Source: Anaerolineae bacterium (GTDB lineage: Bacteria; Chloroflexota; Anaerolineae; Aggregatilineales; Phototrophicaceae). From it: a stretch of DNA of 37,094 nt. Below the pieces are notes generated by a model. It worked only from the letters and a program-made list of their open reading frames with translations. It made no database searches and had not been told where the DNA came from. Position 1 is the first letter of the stretch. Each line of letters opens with the position of its first letter. A program made the position numbers and the translations under genes. Positions 6,516 to 15,180 of this stretch are shown in pieces. The stretch is from assembly GCA_025454525.1 (NCBI GenBank), contig JALOOG010000058.1, positions 1 to 37,094 of the forward strand, read 5' to 3'.

Positions 6516-7016
6516 TTAGGATTCCGTGGTGGGCATCATCAACGGTTTCACCATGCCTTTTAAGATCCGTTCCATGGCCATGGTATGGCTACAGATGCCG
6601 CGACTCTTAAAGTAGTCGTTATCACAATCCCAGTGACCGTTATCGTAGTTGATCGTGTATTCGCTGTGATCGCCGCGGAAACGGGCGTTAAACGAGAGGA
6701 ATTGAATCCGATCAGGTTCAAGCGCATATTGTTTGGCTTTTTCCACATCGCTCACCACATTCTGCCCCGGTGCATAGGGCAGCGGTTCACGTTTGAGCAT
6801 CGGCCCAAAGCTGCGTTCTAACGACATGATATGCGGGCAGATCCCGTATTTTTGGAAACCGGGGCAAGAACAATGCCAACCGTCGGGCCCTAAGGTGATC
6901 GTATAACTGCTGTTGCTGCCTTTAAATTCGAGGGTGAAACTGTTGAAGGTGACACGGGATGGGTCTTCGGCGTACTTCTTCGATTTTTCGATCTTGCCGA
7001 TCATACTGTAGTCCAT
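6516..7016 (-). CDS. Tandem SWIM zinc-finger domain protein
   Basis: A 166-residue protein made of two homologous halves (about 8-75 and 90-157), each with the SWIM pattern CxC...CxH. The first is complete: Cys49, Cys51, Cys60, His62 (WHCSCPGF...GICPHI). The second is degenerate: Cys131 is kept but the partner Cys is replaced (WDCDNDYF), then Cys142 and His144 (GICSHT). SWIM domains bind zinc and mediate contacts with DNA or proteins, as in SWI2/SNF2 and MuDR relatives. Here there is no helicase or transposase domain, so the function is unknown. RBS AGAGGA lies upstream of the ATG. It has its own terminator, and a promoter plus a terminator hairpin lie upstream (7058-7204). Confidence 0.85.
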   Translation of the reverse strand: MDYSMIGKIEKSKKYAEDPSRVTFNSFTLEFKGSNSSYTITLGPDGWHCSCPGFQKYGICPHIMSLERSFGPMLKREPLPYAPGQNVVSDVEKAKQYALEPDRIQFLSFNARFRGDHSEYTINYDNGHWDCDNDYFKSRGICSHTMAMERILKGMVKPLMMPTTES

Positions 7017-10390: not shown

Positions 10391-10903
10391 ATGACCGATG
10401 AGGCAACCGTTTTCCATATACGTCCGCTGCACGACAAAGACCGTAATTGGGTCGCTCATTTTATGGATGAACATTGGCGTTCTACGAAACTGGTTTCGCG
10501 GGGACGGGTGTTCTATGGACATTTGTTACCGGGGTTCGCGGCCTTTCATGGCTCAACGGATCACTGCACAGGCAAAGCGATCGGACTCTTGACCTATCAT
10601 GTCGAAAATCAAGGGTGCGAAGTTTTGACCTTAGATAGCATAGAGCAAGGGATCGGGATCGGGTCGGCGTTGTTGGATGCCGTGAAAACGGCTGCTATCC
10701 ATGCTGGGATCAAACGTTTATGGTTGATCACCACCAACGATAACCTCCATGCCTTGCGCTTTTATCAAAAGCGTGGCTTTCGCCTAGGGCATATTTACCA
10801 TAACGCCTTAGAAGAGGCGCGCAAATTAAAACCGCAAATCCCGATTTTAGGGTTTCATCAGATTCCGATCCGCGATGAAATTGAGTTATATGTCAACCTT
10901 TAG
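10391..10903 (+). CDS. GNAT-family N-acetyltransferase
   Basis: A 170-residue acetyltransferase that should move an acetyl group from acetyl-CoA to an amine; the substrate is unknown. The acetyl-CoA loop is seen as QGIGIGSALLDAV (the Q/R-x-x-G-x-G/A motif), preceded by the strand CEVLTLDSIE and followed by the strand RLWLITTNDNLHALRFYQKRGF, the usual end of the GNAT core. The ATG at 10391 is preferred over the GTG at 10385 because GGAGAAG is centred about 9 bases upstream of the ATG. Single gene, transcribed divergently from uvrA; the next element downstream is a separate promoter at 10961. Confidence 0.88.
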   Translation: MTDEATVFHIRPLHDKDRNWVAHFMDEHWRSTKLVSRGRVFYGHLLPGFAAFHGSTDHCTGKAIGLLTYHVENQGCEVLTLDSIEQGIGIGSALLDAVKTAAIHAGIKRLWLITTNDNLHALRFYQKRGFRLGHIYHNALEEARKLKPQIPILGFHQIPIRDEIELYVNL

Positions 10904-10960
10904 GGAGATCAGAAATTGAATAGAATTGCCCAAACATGGGTTTTTATGGGTCAAAAGGGC

Positions 10961-10989
10961 TTGCATCGTTGATCAAACCGTGTTATAGT
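10961..10989 (+). promoter_or_regulatory. Strong promoter of the orphan RNA
   Basis: -35 TTGCAT (10961-10966), a 17-base spacer, and -10 TATAGT (10984-10989). Transcription should begin near 10996. It serves only the structured RNA ending at 11173, since the next gene is on the opposite strand. Confidence 0.65.
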
Positions 10990-11026
10990 ACCCGCATCGA
11001 TGGGGAGAAAAAGGAGGTGGTCGAAA

Positions 11027-11065
11027 ATGGGTAACTATAGTCGATTGGTAGGGGCAAACCTCTAG
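11027..11065 (+). CDS. Leader-peptide-like ORF, 12 residues
   Basis: ATG to TAG encodes MGNYSRLVGANL. The Shine-Dalgarno AAGGAGGTGG sits at ideal spacing, better than that of most genes here. It is too short to judge by composition and has no run of a single amino acid that would hint at what it senses. Its stop codon overlaps a segment with two alternative pairing partners. It may be a regulatory leader peptide, a small translated product, or chance. Confidence 0.35.
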   Translation: MGNYSRLVGANL

Positions 11066-11139
11066 CAACACTCCTATGAGGCGCACTGTTAGAGGTGTTG
11101 CCGTAACCTAGACAGGCGCGAGGTAATCTTGCGTAACAG

Positions 11140-11173
11140 CAGCCGGGTGGGTCTCTACGCCCGGCTGTTTTTT
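11140..11173 (+). terminator. Intrinsic terminator of the orphan RNA
   Basis: Stem CAGCCGGG (11140-11147) with CCCGGCTG (11160-11167), followed by six T (11168-11173). It points on the plus strand and ends 25 bases before the 3' end of the convergent gene at 11199. Confidence 0.85.
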
Positions 11174-11198
11174 ATTCAGGGGCAAGCTTTCGCTCATG

Positions 11199-12941
11199 TT
11201 ACGATTCAAAATCACAAGATGCCCACTCCCAAAGATGTTGCGAATCGCGTGATAATCCGGCGATCCGGTACAAGTGTGTGGTTTGCAGATCGATAAACGC
11301 AAGATGATCGCCATGCAAAGCGTAATAACGATTATCCGGTGAAAAGCTGGAGTCAAAAATTGTAAAAGGATACGGGATTGCTTGGTTGCCTTCAACCGAA
11401 ACCAGATGAAAACCGGATCCGTTGCTGGTACTAAACCAAACTTGTTGATCGCTCACGACTCTAAATTGCCCTGATATGGAGGCGGTTGTCGGGACGCGAT
11501 AAACGCGCCAGCTAAGATTGGTGCGAGAAAACAACCCTAAAAAGCGCCCCGAATCAGTTGACCACCCAAAGGCAAGATAGCCGGGGATGATAAAACGTGG
11601 GACGGTAAAGTGATCACTTCGGGCTAATTGTTGGGTGATGCCGGTATGCAGATTAAACCAATAGAGTTGTTGTTGATCGCGTTCATTCCACCGATAATAG
11701 AAAAACTGTCCATGCGCTTGAAGATGCGGATATTCAAACAACTCCGCGCTCAATAAACGGGACTTGGTGGGATTGATGACCGGAATAATCTGGACTTCTC
11801 GCGGTTTATCGGCCGGTTGACGGATCAAGATGTATTGGTTGTCCTGTGTCCACACGATCGCCCGCGAGTCGGTGGGTGGGGCGGGATATGCGGCCAATTG
11901 AATCTCGCGTTGCCCATCCCAGAGCCAGACGTGTCCGATCGGTTCTGCTTTGCGATAAAACAGGATTTTGGTCTGATCGGGTGAAAACTTGATCACTTGA
12001 TCCGCGTGTGGAATGCGAGTCCTCATCTGATCCAAGCGCCGATCGTATTCGATCAATTGCCAAGAAGGGCCTTGATTACGCCAAAACCACAAACGATCGC
12101 CATGCCAAACGAGATGCTCGATCTGTTGATCGGTGATCAGGGTTTTGGATGTTCCTTGCGCTGTATAGATCTTCAAGTCAGAGGTGCCATATAAGGCTTC
12201 TCCAGAGGGACGAATAAACTGAATCGCCAGTGTTTGAGCATCAGCGGCCCACCTAAAATCACCTAAGACGCGATCAGGTTCATCAAAGCTGTGCGTTTCC
12301 TGTTGGGAATATAACCGCACCTGTTCAGCATTATAGGTGAAGATCGCTTCTTCCGACGGCGACCAACTGAGGGTTGTCTGCTGATTGGTCGGAAGTGGCG
12401 AAAACGGAAGGGGTTGCAGATCGGGAACGGTGAGCAGATGAGTCCAATAATCGTTATAATAAATGAGAATTTGGCCATCTACCGTAAAACCATACAGGAT
12501 ATACCCCGATTCTTCCCGATTTTGACCGTCAATCTGACGCGATTGGATCAACCGTCCAGAGTGGGCTTTTAGCTCAAGCCGGCCGGTATCGGTGACATAA
12601 GCCCTATAATCACTTGACCAATGAATCGTCGATGTTGATGGCACAACATCCCGGAGAAATTCACGGTTGGGATGTGGTCTGAAATTCAATAAAACAGGCA
12701 GGTCATAAAATGACGACTCTGGATCATAGGCGCGGAGTCCCGTCCCACCCGCCCGAATCGGCTCTTGCATTTTGACCACCTGCGCTTCAGTCGGGTCAAT
12801 TAAATACCAAATAGAGTCATTTCCCCACAAGTTAATGCGATAACACCAGCGCTCTTCACGCTGCCCGAGAGCGATTGCCGCTAAGATTGCCAAGCTAAAG
12901 GTTAGGTGTAACGCGATCATCGTTCGGATCAATGGGTGCAT
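11199..12941 (-). CDS. Membrane-anchored beta-propeller (PD40-like) protein
   Basis: A 580-residue protein with an N-terminal hydrophobic segment (about 8-27) that is a signal peptide or membrane anchor, then a long exported region. The body contains diverged WD40/PD40-type blades: SWSPSEEAIF, RWAADAQTLA, FSPDQTKILF, VWTQDNQYIL, GWSTDSGRFL and SFSPDNRYYA. No lipobox and no catalytic motif are seen. The fold suggests a binding or sensing role outside the membrane. The ATG has AAGGGGG 5-10 bases upstream. A short ORF (13036-13155) and a promoter-like element (13176-13214) lie upstream on the same strand, so it may be the second cistron. Product-level function is unknown. Confidence 0.75.
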   Translation of the reverse strand: MHPLIRTMIALHLTFSLAILAAIALGQREERWCYRINLWGNDSIWYLIDPTEAQVVKMQEPIRAGGTGLRAYDPESSFYDLPVLLNFRPHPNREFLRDVVPSTSTIHWSSDYRAYVTDTGRLELKAHSGRLIQSRQIDGQNREESGYILYGFTVDGQILIYYNDYWTHLLTVPDLQPLPFSPLPTNQQTTLSWSPSEEAIFTYNAEQVRLYSQQETHSFDEPDRVLGDFRWAADAQTLAIQFIRPSGEALYGTSDLKIYTAQGTSKTLITDQQIEHLVWHGDRLWFWRNQGPSWQLIEYDRRLDQMRTRIPHADQVIKFSPDQTKILFYRKAEPIGHVWLWDGQREIQLAAYPAPPTDSRAIVWTQDNQYILIRQPADKPREVQIIPVINPTKSRLLSAELFEYPHLQAHGQFFYYRWNERDQQQLYWFNLHTGITQQLARSDHFTVPRFIIPGYLAFGWSTDSGRFLGLFSRTNLSWRVYRVPTTASISGQFRVVSDQQVWFSTSNGSGFHLVSVEGNQAIPYPFTIFDSSFSPDNRYYALHGDHLAFIDLQTTHLYRIAGLSRDSQHLWEWASCDFES

Positions 12942-13250: not shown

Positions 13251-14183
13251 TTAGAACAGTTTTGGCTTTGCGTCTAAATTTCTTAAGCGGTTGATTGCCA
13301 TAGTTGCGTATTCAGGCACAAGCTCTATACCAATAAATTGTCGATTGTGTTGTTGTGCAACTAACGCTGTAGTTCCTGAACCTAAAAACGGATCAAGTAT
13401 AAGATCATTTTCCGCACTTCCAGCAAGTAAGCACGTTTCTACGAGTTCTTGAGGAAAAACCGCAAAATGTGCTTCTCGAAATTTACCCAATGAAATGCTC
13501 CAAACGGTACGTTTATTTCGACCTAATGGATGAAAAGCCTGATCCCACCTGCCATTGTGTAGATTTGGATTTCCAGAGTTTTTACCACGTTCAGGTGTGC
13601 CATCTCGCTTACCAAAATGATTTCTGCCACCACGCATTTTTGATTTATCGCTAAATGTAACATGAGGTTCGCGGATAGCGTCGGCGTTGTAATAATAGTC
13701 CGTAGTTTTAGAGAATAAAAAAATTGTTTCGTGGGAAGTCGTAGGGCGATTTTTTACCGATGAGGGCATAGCATTCGGTTTGTTCCAAATGATTTCACTT
13801 CTTAAAATCCAGCCACTATCTTGTAATGATAGAGCCACTCGCCAAGGAATACCTAATAGTTGATTGTTGCGGTATGTATCCCCTAGATTCAACCATAAAG
13901 TACCGTTCGGTTTGAGAGTTCGCCTCAGTTCTGTAAAAAGTTCTACCAATTTCTCAACGTATTCACTAAGCTGTTGCTCTTGCCCAAACTCCATATTTTT
14001 TAATTCGTAATGATGACCACTATAATTCCGATGTCCGAAGTATGGAGGGCTGGTAATTATAGATTGTATCGATTCGCTAGAAAGATGTTTGACTACCTCC
14101 CAACTGTCTCCAACAATGACTGTATTTGTATGTTGGGATACAGATTGTGTCAAGTCTTGGGCTGAAAGTAAACGGACAAACAT
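13251..14183 (-). CDS. Type II-like DNA methyltransferase (beta class, TSPPY)
   Basis: A 310-residue site-specific DNA methyltransferase. Motif IV TSPPY (44-48) comes first and motif I DPFLGSGTT (about 268-276) near the C-terminus, the order of beta-class enzymes. An SPPY rather than DPPY/NPPY motif favours N4-cytosine methylation, though N6-adenine cannot be excluded. The region between holds the likely target-recognition part. It follows the presumed endonuclease gene by 13 bases, its RBS AAGGGG touching that gene's stop, so the two are co-transcribed. Both are visibly richer in A+T than their neighbours, with codon use to match, which suggests acquisition by transfer. Its role would be to protect host sites from the partner. 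Confidence 0.9.
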   Translation of the reverse strand: MFVRLLSAQDLTQSVSQHTNTVIVGDSWEVVKHLSSESIQSIITSPPYFGHRNYSGHHYELKNMEFGQEQQLSEYVEKLVELFTELRRTLKPNGTLWLNLGDTYRNNQLLGIPWRVALSLQDSGWILRSEIIWNKPNAMPSSVKNRPTTSHETIFLFSKTTDYYYNADAIREPHVTFSDKSKMRGGRNHFGKRDGTPERGKNSGNPNLHNGRWDQAFHPLGRNKRTVWSISLGKFREAHFAVFPQELVETCLLAGSAENDLILDPFLGSGTTALVAQQHNRQFIGIELVPEYATMAINRLRNLDAKPKLF

Positions 14184-14196
14184 CTTGGTAAACCCC

Positions 14197-15180
14197 TTAA
14201 CTTTTTCCTTTGGGTATCACTATACCATCGAACACATTTGCGATAAAGGTATTCAAACGTATTTGAGCTTCAGATTCATAAAGCGTGAATTCACCCGGTG
14301 ACATATCGAATAGAGCTAGATGATCGGTAATTATGTTCAGTGATTCTGTCTCGCGTTGCGCCCAATTTTTAGCCACAATAACCACCACTACATAATCAGA
14401 CTCTTTAACTGCATTGATAGCCGATAGAATGTCTCTAGTGAACAGGTGAGAATGTCCCCCACCTTCTGTTTCCCGTGTTTTGATAGGGATTAATATACGT
14501 TTAACGGTGTTTCCGTCCGTGTCCAAAAGATTTACGCTAATATCATAACTTTCATTTCCAATCATTACTTGTGTATCAGGTATCTCCACTCCTGCGTAAA
14601 TGCCATACGATTTAGTTTTGTGAAAATATTCTTGAATAGCGATAATCAAGGCAGTACGTACCACTGTCTCTTTTTCATGACCTTTGATACTTCTACGCGA
14701 GCCTTCGAGTCTATCTATAATGATCTCTCGTATTACTTCCCAAGAAAACGTCTTCACATAATCTCGATATTCCACGATTAAAGCGGTGAGAACCTCAATT
14801 TCTGAATCTAAGCGAGATTGCGATGAACTTTTTACTATACGTTGAATGAGTGGAGCGAGGCGTTGTTGCGGAGCATCTCTAATAAGCCAAGAAAAGAAAT
14901 AGTAACATGCCTTTGAGTGTGGATATGTTCTTCCTATGCCGTCAAAGAGGAACGGTATATCTAATTTACCTTTAACAAGATAGCAAGAACGAATACTTTG
15001 CTTTATTTCATCAGGTTGCGCCGTAAGCAAAATGACTTCTAAAGCCTGATCCGAGGACAGAGCGATTTGAAATTGTTTCTCCACCCACTCATAAAATGGC
15101 TTGGCTTGATCGGCCAAACGTGTCAAATCAATTAAACGGAAGTGAGTAACATTTACATCTGCTATGATGAGTAAATTCAT
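14197..15180 (-). CDS. Probable type II restriction endonuclease (PD-(D/E)XK-like)
   Basis: A 327-residue protein I assign to restriction by context and a faint motif. After a helical N-terminal two thirds, GHEKETVVRTALIIAIQEYF (167-186) leads to a beta core with Asp213 (SYDISVNLL) and about 20 residues later IPIKTRETEGGG (231-242). A helix bearing Glu, then D-x(about 20)-P-x-K, is the shape of a PD-(D/E)XK nuclease, with Ile where the second acidic residue normally sits, so catalytic residues may be rearranged (for example Lys234-x-x-Glu237). AGGAAAAT precedes the ATG. It is first in the two-gene unit, and A+T rich like the methyltransferase. Specificity cannot be told from sequence. Confidence 0.7.
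   Translation of the reverse strand: MNLLIIADVNVTHFRLIDLTRLADQAKPFYEWVEKQFQIALSSDQALEVILLTAQPDEIKQSIRSCYLVKGKLDIPFLFDGIGRTYPHSKACYYFFSWLIRDAPQQRLAPLIQRIVKSSSQSRLDSEIEVLTALIVEYRDYVKTFSWEVIREIIIDRLEGSRRSIKGHEKETVVRTALIIAIQEYFHKTKSYGIYAGVEIPDTQVMIGNESYDISVNLLDTDGNTVKRILIPIKTRETEGGGHSHLFTRDILSAINAVKESDYVVVVIVAKNWAQRETESLNIITDHLALFDMSPGEFTLYESEAQIRLNTFIANVFDGIVIPKGKS

Follow-up and report, generated by a model that had tools for sequence, protein, structure and literature searches.

The window, a 37,094-nucleotide stretch of DNA from the Anaerolineae contig JALOOG010000058.1, carries on its forward strand a compact unit that would be transcribed as an RNA of about 180 nt (about 10995-11173). The promoter (10961-10989) consists of a -35 element TTGCAT (10961-10966), a 17-base spacer, and a -10 hexamer TATAGT (10984-10989) with TG directly before it, forming the extended -10 element TGTTATAGT. 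Transcription probably starts at the conserved 5' end CATCG (10995-10999). An extended Shine-Dalgarno (SD) sequence, AAAGGAGGTGGTC (11010-11022), offers 13 nt of complementarity, including one G-U pair, to the 3' tail of 16S rRNA, GATCACCTCCTTT. It precedes a 12-codon open reading frame (ORF), MGNYSRLVGANL (11027-11065), which begins with ATG at 11027 and ends with the stop codon TAG at 11063-11065. The end of this ORF pairs with 11087-11108 in a long hairpin, P (about 11047-11108), whose stem contains the stop codon. A small hairpin is predicted at about 11116-11134, between P and the intrinsic terminator (11139-11173), which comprises a stem at about 11139-11168 and a T run to 11173. The 185-nt RNA is predicted to fold with -71.7 kcal/mol (z -3.81), and none of 200 dinucleotide shuffles folded as well.

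The initial annotation had placed the promoter, the SD sequence, the ORF, the terminator, and the segment CCTCTA (11059-11064) with two possible partners, TAGGGG (11049-11054) and TAGAGG (11090-11095); all of these coordinates proved to be correct. Of the three hairpins it described, the terminator stands, whereas the rest is better drawn as the one long hairpin and the small one. Upstream of the RNA, on the same strand, lies a GNAT acetyltransferase gene; the downstream gene is convergent and encodes a 580-aa protein without a Pfam match. Elsewhere in the window, on the reverse strand, a DNA methylase gene (N6_N4_Mtase) adjoins a gene for a 327-aa protein without a Pfam match (13251-15180), possibly forming a restriction-modification pair, and a gene at 6516-7016 encodes a 166-aa protein in which a cysteine-rich pattern (CSCPGFQKYGICPH...), by eye a SWIM-like zinc finger, is repeated.

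Comparison of genomes shows that the unit belongs to an RNA family with a promoter, a short ORF, a long hairpin, long complementarity to 16S rRNA, and a free-standing place. Judged from these sequences the observation is real and goes beyond chance: the promoter, SD sequence, ORF, and long hairpin are kept in relatives, which often have a terminator that can be recognised as well. A DNA search of the window's own genome and 60 relatives returned three true relatives (E 0.005 to 0.2), all aligned in the 5' part, and a pattern search of the 154 genomes of the window's order found further members amid many chance matches. Two covariance models were used, R1 from 12 sequences and R2 from 45; both include the SD and ORF stretch, so that members were partly selected for SD and ORF features. 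R1 gave matches in 112 of the 154 genomes at E<=1. R2 gave matches in 98 of the 154 at E<=0.001, at a single place in 97 genomes and at two places in one; these matches were not all inspected singly, and a few may be opposite-strand or chance matches. The window's own family accounts for 89 of the 98 matched genomes, and four other families (f4, f6, f7, and f8) account for the remaining nine. At the same threshold R2 found no match in 56 of the 154 genomes, including nine of the 98 genomes that make up the window's own family.

Outside the order, matches were sparse. An even draw from the class yielded 32 matched genomes out of 396, 28 of them in the window's order, and a sample of the phylum yielded model matches in three of 400 genomes. 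The family looks confined to the order, since none of the five places matched outside it (L230, L231, L233, L263, and L260) has the whole layout by eye. One of these, L263, has the 5' stretch and SD sequence of the family, but neither ORF nor hairpin was seen there, and it lies directly upstream of a gene. Pattern matches in viral contigs and other phyla were also set aside: 16 such loci scored with R2 (10 viral and six of 61 from other phyla) gave 10 weak partial matches, and by eye two of these (L254 and L256) have no family layout. Two members from families f7 and f8 (L261 in genome G149 and L262 in genome G076) look divergent; they resemble the family at the 5' end and SD sequence and have a smaller hairpin. 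For detailed reading we took 50 members, one per genome, from the pattern-search and R1 sets; this set covers only a minority of the 34 genomes assigned to genus g17 and keeps two near-identical members. Representatives were drawn at less than 80% identity (41 sequences) and at less than 65% identity (19 sequences).

This comparison shows that the long hairpin, in which the ORF itself supplies the 5' strand, covaries across the family. In the model-fitted alignment of 45 sequences, both-side changes were found in 10 of the 12 stem pairs, compared with 6.9 in shuffles (three of 500 as high), and double-change cells numbered 61, compared with 17.3 in shuffles (none of 500 as high). With the partner shifted by one column, 6 and 3 such cells were left. 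Since a model-fitted alignment leans towards the structure, an alignment-free test was also run, in which the arms of each member were compared with swapped arms. The own pair was better, with z -10.7 for the 41 representatives and z -7.1 for the 19; these values are not probabilities, because the members are related. The mean fold z of members was -3.58, with 32 of the 41 representatives below -2, and in the predicted fold (state I) at least 10 long-stem pairs form in 38 of 41. RNAalifold on MAFFT alignments returned weak structures. The covariance search of related genomes suggested in the initial annotation has accordingly returned homologues with covariation.

A competing fold (state II) is predicted for the same RNA. 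In it the ORF end would form a short hairpin, H1, by TAGGGG:CCTCTA pairing (11049-11064), and an anti-SD-like motif, CACTCCT (11069-11075, forward strand), which begins 3 nt past the stop codon, can pair with the SD sequence. This motif, absent from the initial annotation as was the order-wide distribution of the RNA, resembles the 16S tail and is complementary to the RNA's own SD sequence. It is often CACCTC-like in relatives: CACCT lies no more than 26 nt past the stop codon in 26 of the 41 representatives, compared with one and none in the next two intervals. When the pairs between the ORF and the 3' arm were penalised out, at least five SD:loop pairs formed in 35 of 41 representatives and a local H1 of at least 3 bp formed in all 41. 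The predicted energy of state II minus state I had a median of +2.2 kcal/mol over the 41 representatives, and state II compared with loop-shuffled folds gave a mean z of -1.79, below -1 in 30 of 41. These models predict two near-equal folds, with the SD sequence free in one and covered by the anti-SD-like motif in the other.

The long hairpin is backed by covariation; for state II the covariation tests were largely null. Covariation of the SD:loop pairing was not shown by the swap test (p 0.043 and 0.23; in a later run 0.056 with 41 and 0.46 with 19 representatives), the result being no better than one control (p 0.043, 41 representatives), and none was seen for H1 (p 0.54); both nulls arise in part because the two strands hardly vary. 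For an outer helix, P0, covariation was not found or was borderline (p 0.43 with 41 and 0.036 with 19 representatives). Compared with shuffles of its own loop, the SD:loop duplex reached p<=0.05 in only nine of the 50 members, and the copy in the window has an imperfect loop motif, with z +0.4 in the duplex test and z -0.8 in the state II fold test. The two competing partners that had been proposed for CCTCTA therefore differ in standing: the pairing with TAGAGG is borne out by covariation, whereas the TAGGGG hairpin is predicted in 41 of 41 representatives without it.

The SD sequence is exceptional in length. Across the family it has 10-17 contiguous nucleotides complementary to the 16S tail, G-U allowed, compared with 4-10 nt for 530 ORFs (120 aa or longer) that were listed mechanically at the same loci, each scored by the best among its candidate starts; one listed ORF scored 16, and this was in fact the RNA's own SD sequence (L179). 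A strong SD sequence had been noted at the outset, and it is this excess over neighbouring ORFs that was not visible from a single sequence. In four genomes of the order the 16S 3' end reads GGATCACCTCCTTTCTA; in one member outside the 50, L229, the SD sequence is AAAGGGGGTGATC. The window's 5.24-Mb assembly has a single copy of the 13-mer AAAGGAGGTGRTC, within the RNA. In 21 genomes searched the 13-mer gave 17 matches in 12 genomes: seven are the RNA, five are the complement of the 16S 3' end, and five lie elsewhere. The highly conserved CATCG at the putative 5' end may pair with GGTG of the SD sequence or may be an initiation signal.

Such long complementarity, a 13-mer unique in its own genome, and a strong hairpin within the ORF directly after the SD sequence could also belong to an RNA that titrates or parks 30S subunits. 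The long SD sequence would capture the subunits and the ORF hairpin would delay them, throttling translation or protecting idle subunits, and the internal anti-SD would limit the capture. We consider this unlikely. All 50 members have retained a stop codon together with an open frame of 9-12 codons, which would be needless for mere capture, and a single gene copy would presumably require very high expression.

The ORF itself is conserved as a frame and hardly as a peptide. It occupies the same place, with 9-12 codons, in 50 of 50 members (4.2% in shuffles, 41 representatives) and starts 5-11 nt downstream of GGAGG with ATG (27 members), GTG (16), or TTG (7). The stop codons are TAG in 25 members, TAA in 16, and TGA in 9, and the other two frames have an internal stop in 37 and 24 of the 50 members. 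Outside this set, the ORFs read by eye have 10-12 codons in L228, L229, L232, and L227 (where the model match was to the opposite strand) and about 17 and 19 codons in the divergent members L261 and L262. The initial annotation had anticipated a conserved ORF like that of the window; the short ORF is indeed general, but the peptide is not, with 43 distinct sequences among the 50. Only one of the 50 peptides has three or more identical residues in a row, and the regulatory codon runs of a trp-type leader are absent. Because the ORF is kept while the peptides number 43 and residue runs only one, selection seems to act on translation, or on the position of the stop codon, more than on the peptide.

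These data bear on the explanation that the RNA is a mini-mRNA whose peptide is the product, either a signal or a regulator, with the hairpin tuning translation or RNA stability. A frame kept with varied start and stop codons would fit, as would a loose [KM]G[VA] pattern seen by eye near the C end of many peptides. The diversity of the peptides speaks against it, and the G to E changes that do occur track, by eye, changes in the stem. We regard a peptide product as improbable.

The initial annotation had taken the unit to be free-standing, and this is upheld: the next ORF is convergent in the window and, by mechanical ORF calls, in 31 of the 50 members, with a same-strand ORF next in 17 and none on the contig in two. 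The promoter signals recur, the -10 element ending 5 nt upstream of CATCG in 40 of 50 members, with a spacing of 17 in 28 and TG before the -10 element in 37; a simple scan for a hairpin and T run in a 190-nt stretch found a terminator in 38. No conserved same-strand downstream gene was found among the 50 members. In a Pfam scan, six same-strand neighbours proved to be a short-chain dehydrogenase, a DNA methylase, a UvrD helicase, an FAD/Fe-S protein, and two kinase-STAND proteins, mixed kinds that recur mainly among close relatives. A convergent GNAT acetyltransferase (one BLAST cluster, two members Pfam-confirmed) has its gene close to the RNA in 12 of the 50 members (L131, L133, L134, L187, L188, L190, L192, L207, L208, L209, L213, and L214) and is the next ORF in 10. 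Because of this recurrence the RNA's place is not wholly random; the gene faces the RNA from the opposite side, which disqualifies it as a target of cis control by read-through. The same-strand GNAT gene upstream in the window differs from this cluster.

An attenuator or leader acting in cis, whose downstream gene was lost or displaced in the window's genome, had been one of the first suggestions for this locus. The segment layout is attenuator-like and the 17 same-strand ORFs would be compatible, but the convergent majority, the mixed neighbours, the frequent terminator, and the near absence of residue runs leave this explanation very improbable. On the neighbour comparison we rejected a leader that lost its gene; nor do the homologues always precede a gene from which this copy might have been separated, a same-strand ORF being next in 17 of 50 only.

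Rfam 15 gave no match in the window at the gathering score and none in 10900-11300 up to E 10, in agreement with the initial view that no Rfam-type family is present; in nine relatives at E up to 1, two sub-threshold matches only were obtained, both outside the RNA. A known housekeeping RNA (6S, for example) in an orphan copy too diverged for Rfam would suit a nearly single-copy RNA of about 180 nt that is widespread in the order, but its chance is negligible, as 6S RNA (RF00013), which has no match at the RNA, is found elsewhere in 38 of the 41 genomes searched, the window's genome included (G000:C202), and the RNA therefore does not stand in for it.

The explanation that we prefer, and that we regard as about evenly balanced between right and wrong, is a ribosome-gated riboregulator with a tiny ORF and a bistable fold, acting in trans or on 30S subunits; its main rivals are the titration and mini-mRNA explanations. 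The locus, nearly always present as a single copy, would be transcribed on its own into a small RNA of about 180 nt, and the tiny ORF would be translated for the passage of the ribosome and not for its peptide. In state I the long hairpin would have the ORF as its 5' strand, leaving the SD sequence free; in state II the anti-SD-like motif would pair with the SD sequence, the ORF would fold into the short hairpin, and the 3' arm would be released. Binding of 30S subunits through the long SD:16S duplex, together with passage of the ribosome to the stop codon within the stem, may shift the balance between the states, so that the anti-SD-like motif and the 3' arm become accessible or are hidden. 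With no gene of the unit following, we would expect an output in trans. Our first guess is that the exposed CACCUC-like motif pairs with SD sequences of other mRNAs; the second is a capture of 30S subunits.

A bolder form of this proposal is that the RNA represents a new class, a bistable switch that stands alone and has the 30S subunit for its ligand. The subunit would be bound through a near-full-length complement of the 16S tail, with which an internal copy resembling the tail competes; translation of the tiny ORF, which is also a helix strand, would reset the switch, and the whole would serve across the order as a trans-acting sensor of translation capacity. This we advance tentatively, as a possibility that is on balance doubtful. 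The RNA would be an undescribed one from Chloroflexota, a single object that serves as coding sequence, helix strand, and ribosome binding site; no description of such an RNA in this phylum was found among the matches listed from the open-access literature, in a search that depends on the terms used. If it is ribosome-gated, it would sense translation capacity in nature with no gene downstream, and it would show how attenuator-like logic can be tested for action in trans.

Attenuators of the trp type combine a strongly initiated leader peptide ORF, competing pairings at the end of that ORF, and a terminator. The RNA resembles them in its strongly initiated short ORF and its terminator, and would do so in its competing pairings, of which one is supported by covariation and the other is predicted. 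It differs in having no downstream gene of the unit, its own locus, the long 16S complementarity, an anti-SD-like motif after the stop codon, and a hardly conserved peptide without codon runs. RNAIII, SgrS, and SR1 are examples of dual-function or peptide-coding small RNAs. As in such RNAs, the sequence signals comprise a promoter and terminator of its own with no gene of the unit beside it; in contrast, its ORF has only 9-12 codons and forms one strand of a conserved stem, and the peptide is hardly conserved. Dual-function and peptide-coding small RNAs are likewise free-standing, of regulatory size, and furnished with a small ORF (PMC5521070).

Precedents for single elements of the preferred mechanism exist. 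The attenuator peptide peTrpL of Sinorhizobium is reported to act in trans, a precedent for trans action of an attenuator product (PMC7298713). RsaA of Staphylococcus is described as a C-rich small RNA that binds SD sequences, and thus shares with our RNA a C-rich motif complementary to them (PMC3961350); the motif studied here also matches the RNA's own SD sequence. In Staphylococcus aureus, a study that also touches on uORF control reports extended SD:anti-SD pairing as a general feature of initiation (PMC13009471). The pairing is longer than usual in both cases, but it is reported as species-wide there, whereas here it belongs to one RNA and exceeds that of the ORFs beside it. Minigenes or mini-ORFs are reported to have two codons and to act in cis upstream of a gene (PMC8708949); they share with the RNA a very short ORF and, under the proposed mechanism, its translation and a regulatory effect, and differ from its free-standing ORF of 9-12 codons.

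A minor observation concerns the terminator, whose loop is CUAAYCC-like in many members (for example L133, L175, and L143). The motif CTAA[TCA] occurs at 518 sites in 49 loci; 14 of these sites fall within hairpins that have a 6-bp stem, and on reading all 14 were the RNA's own terminator.
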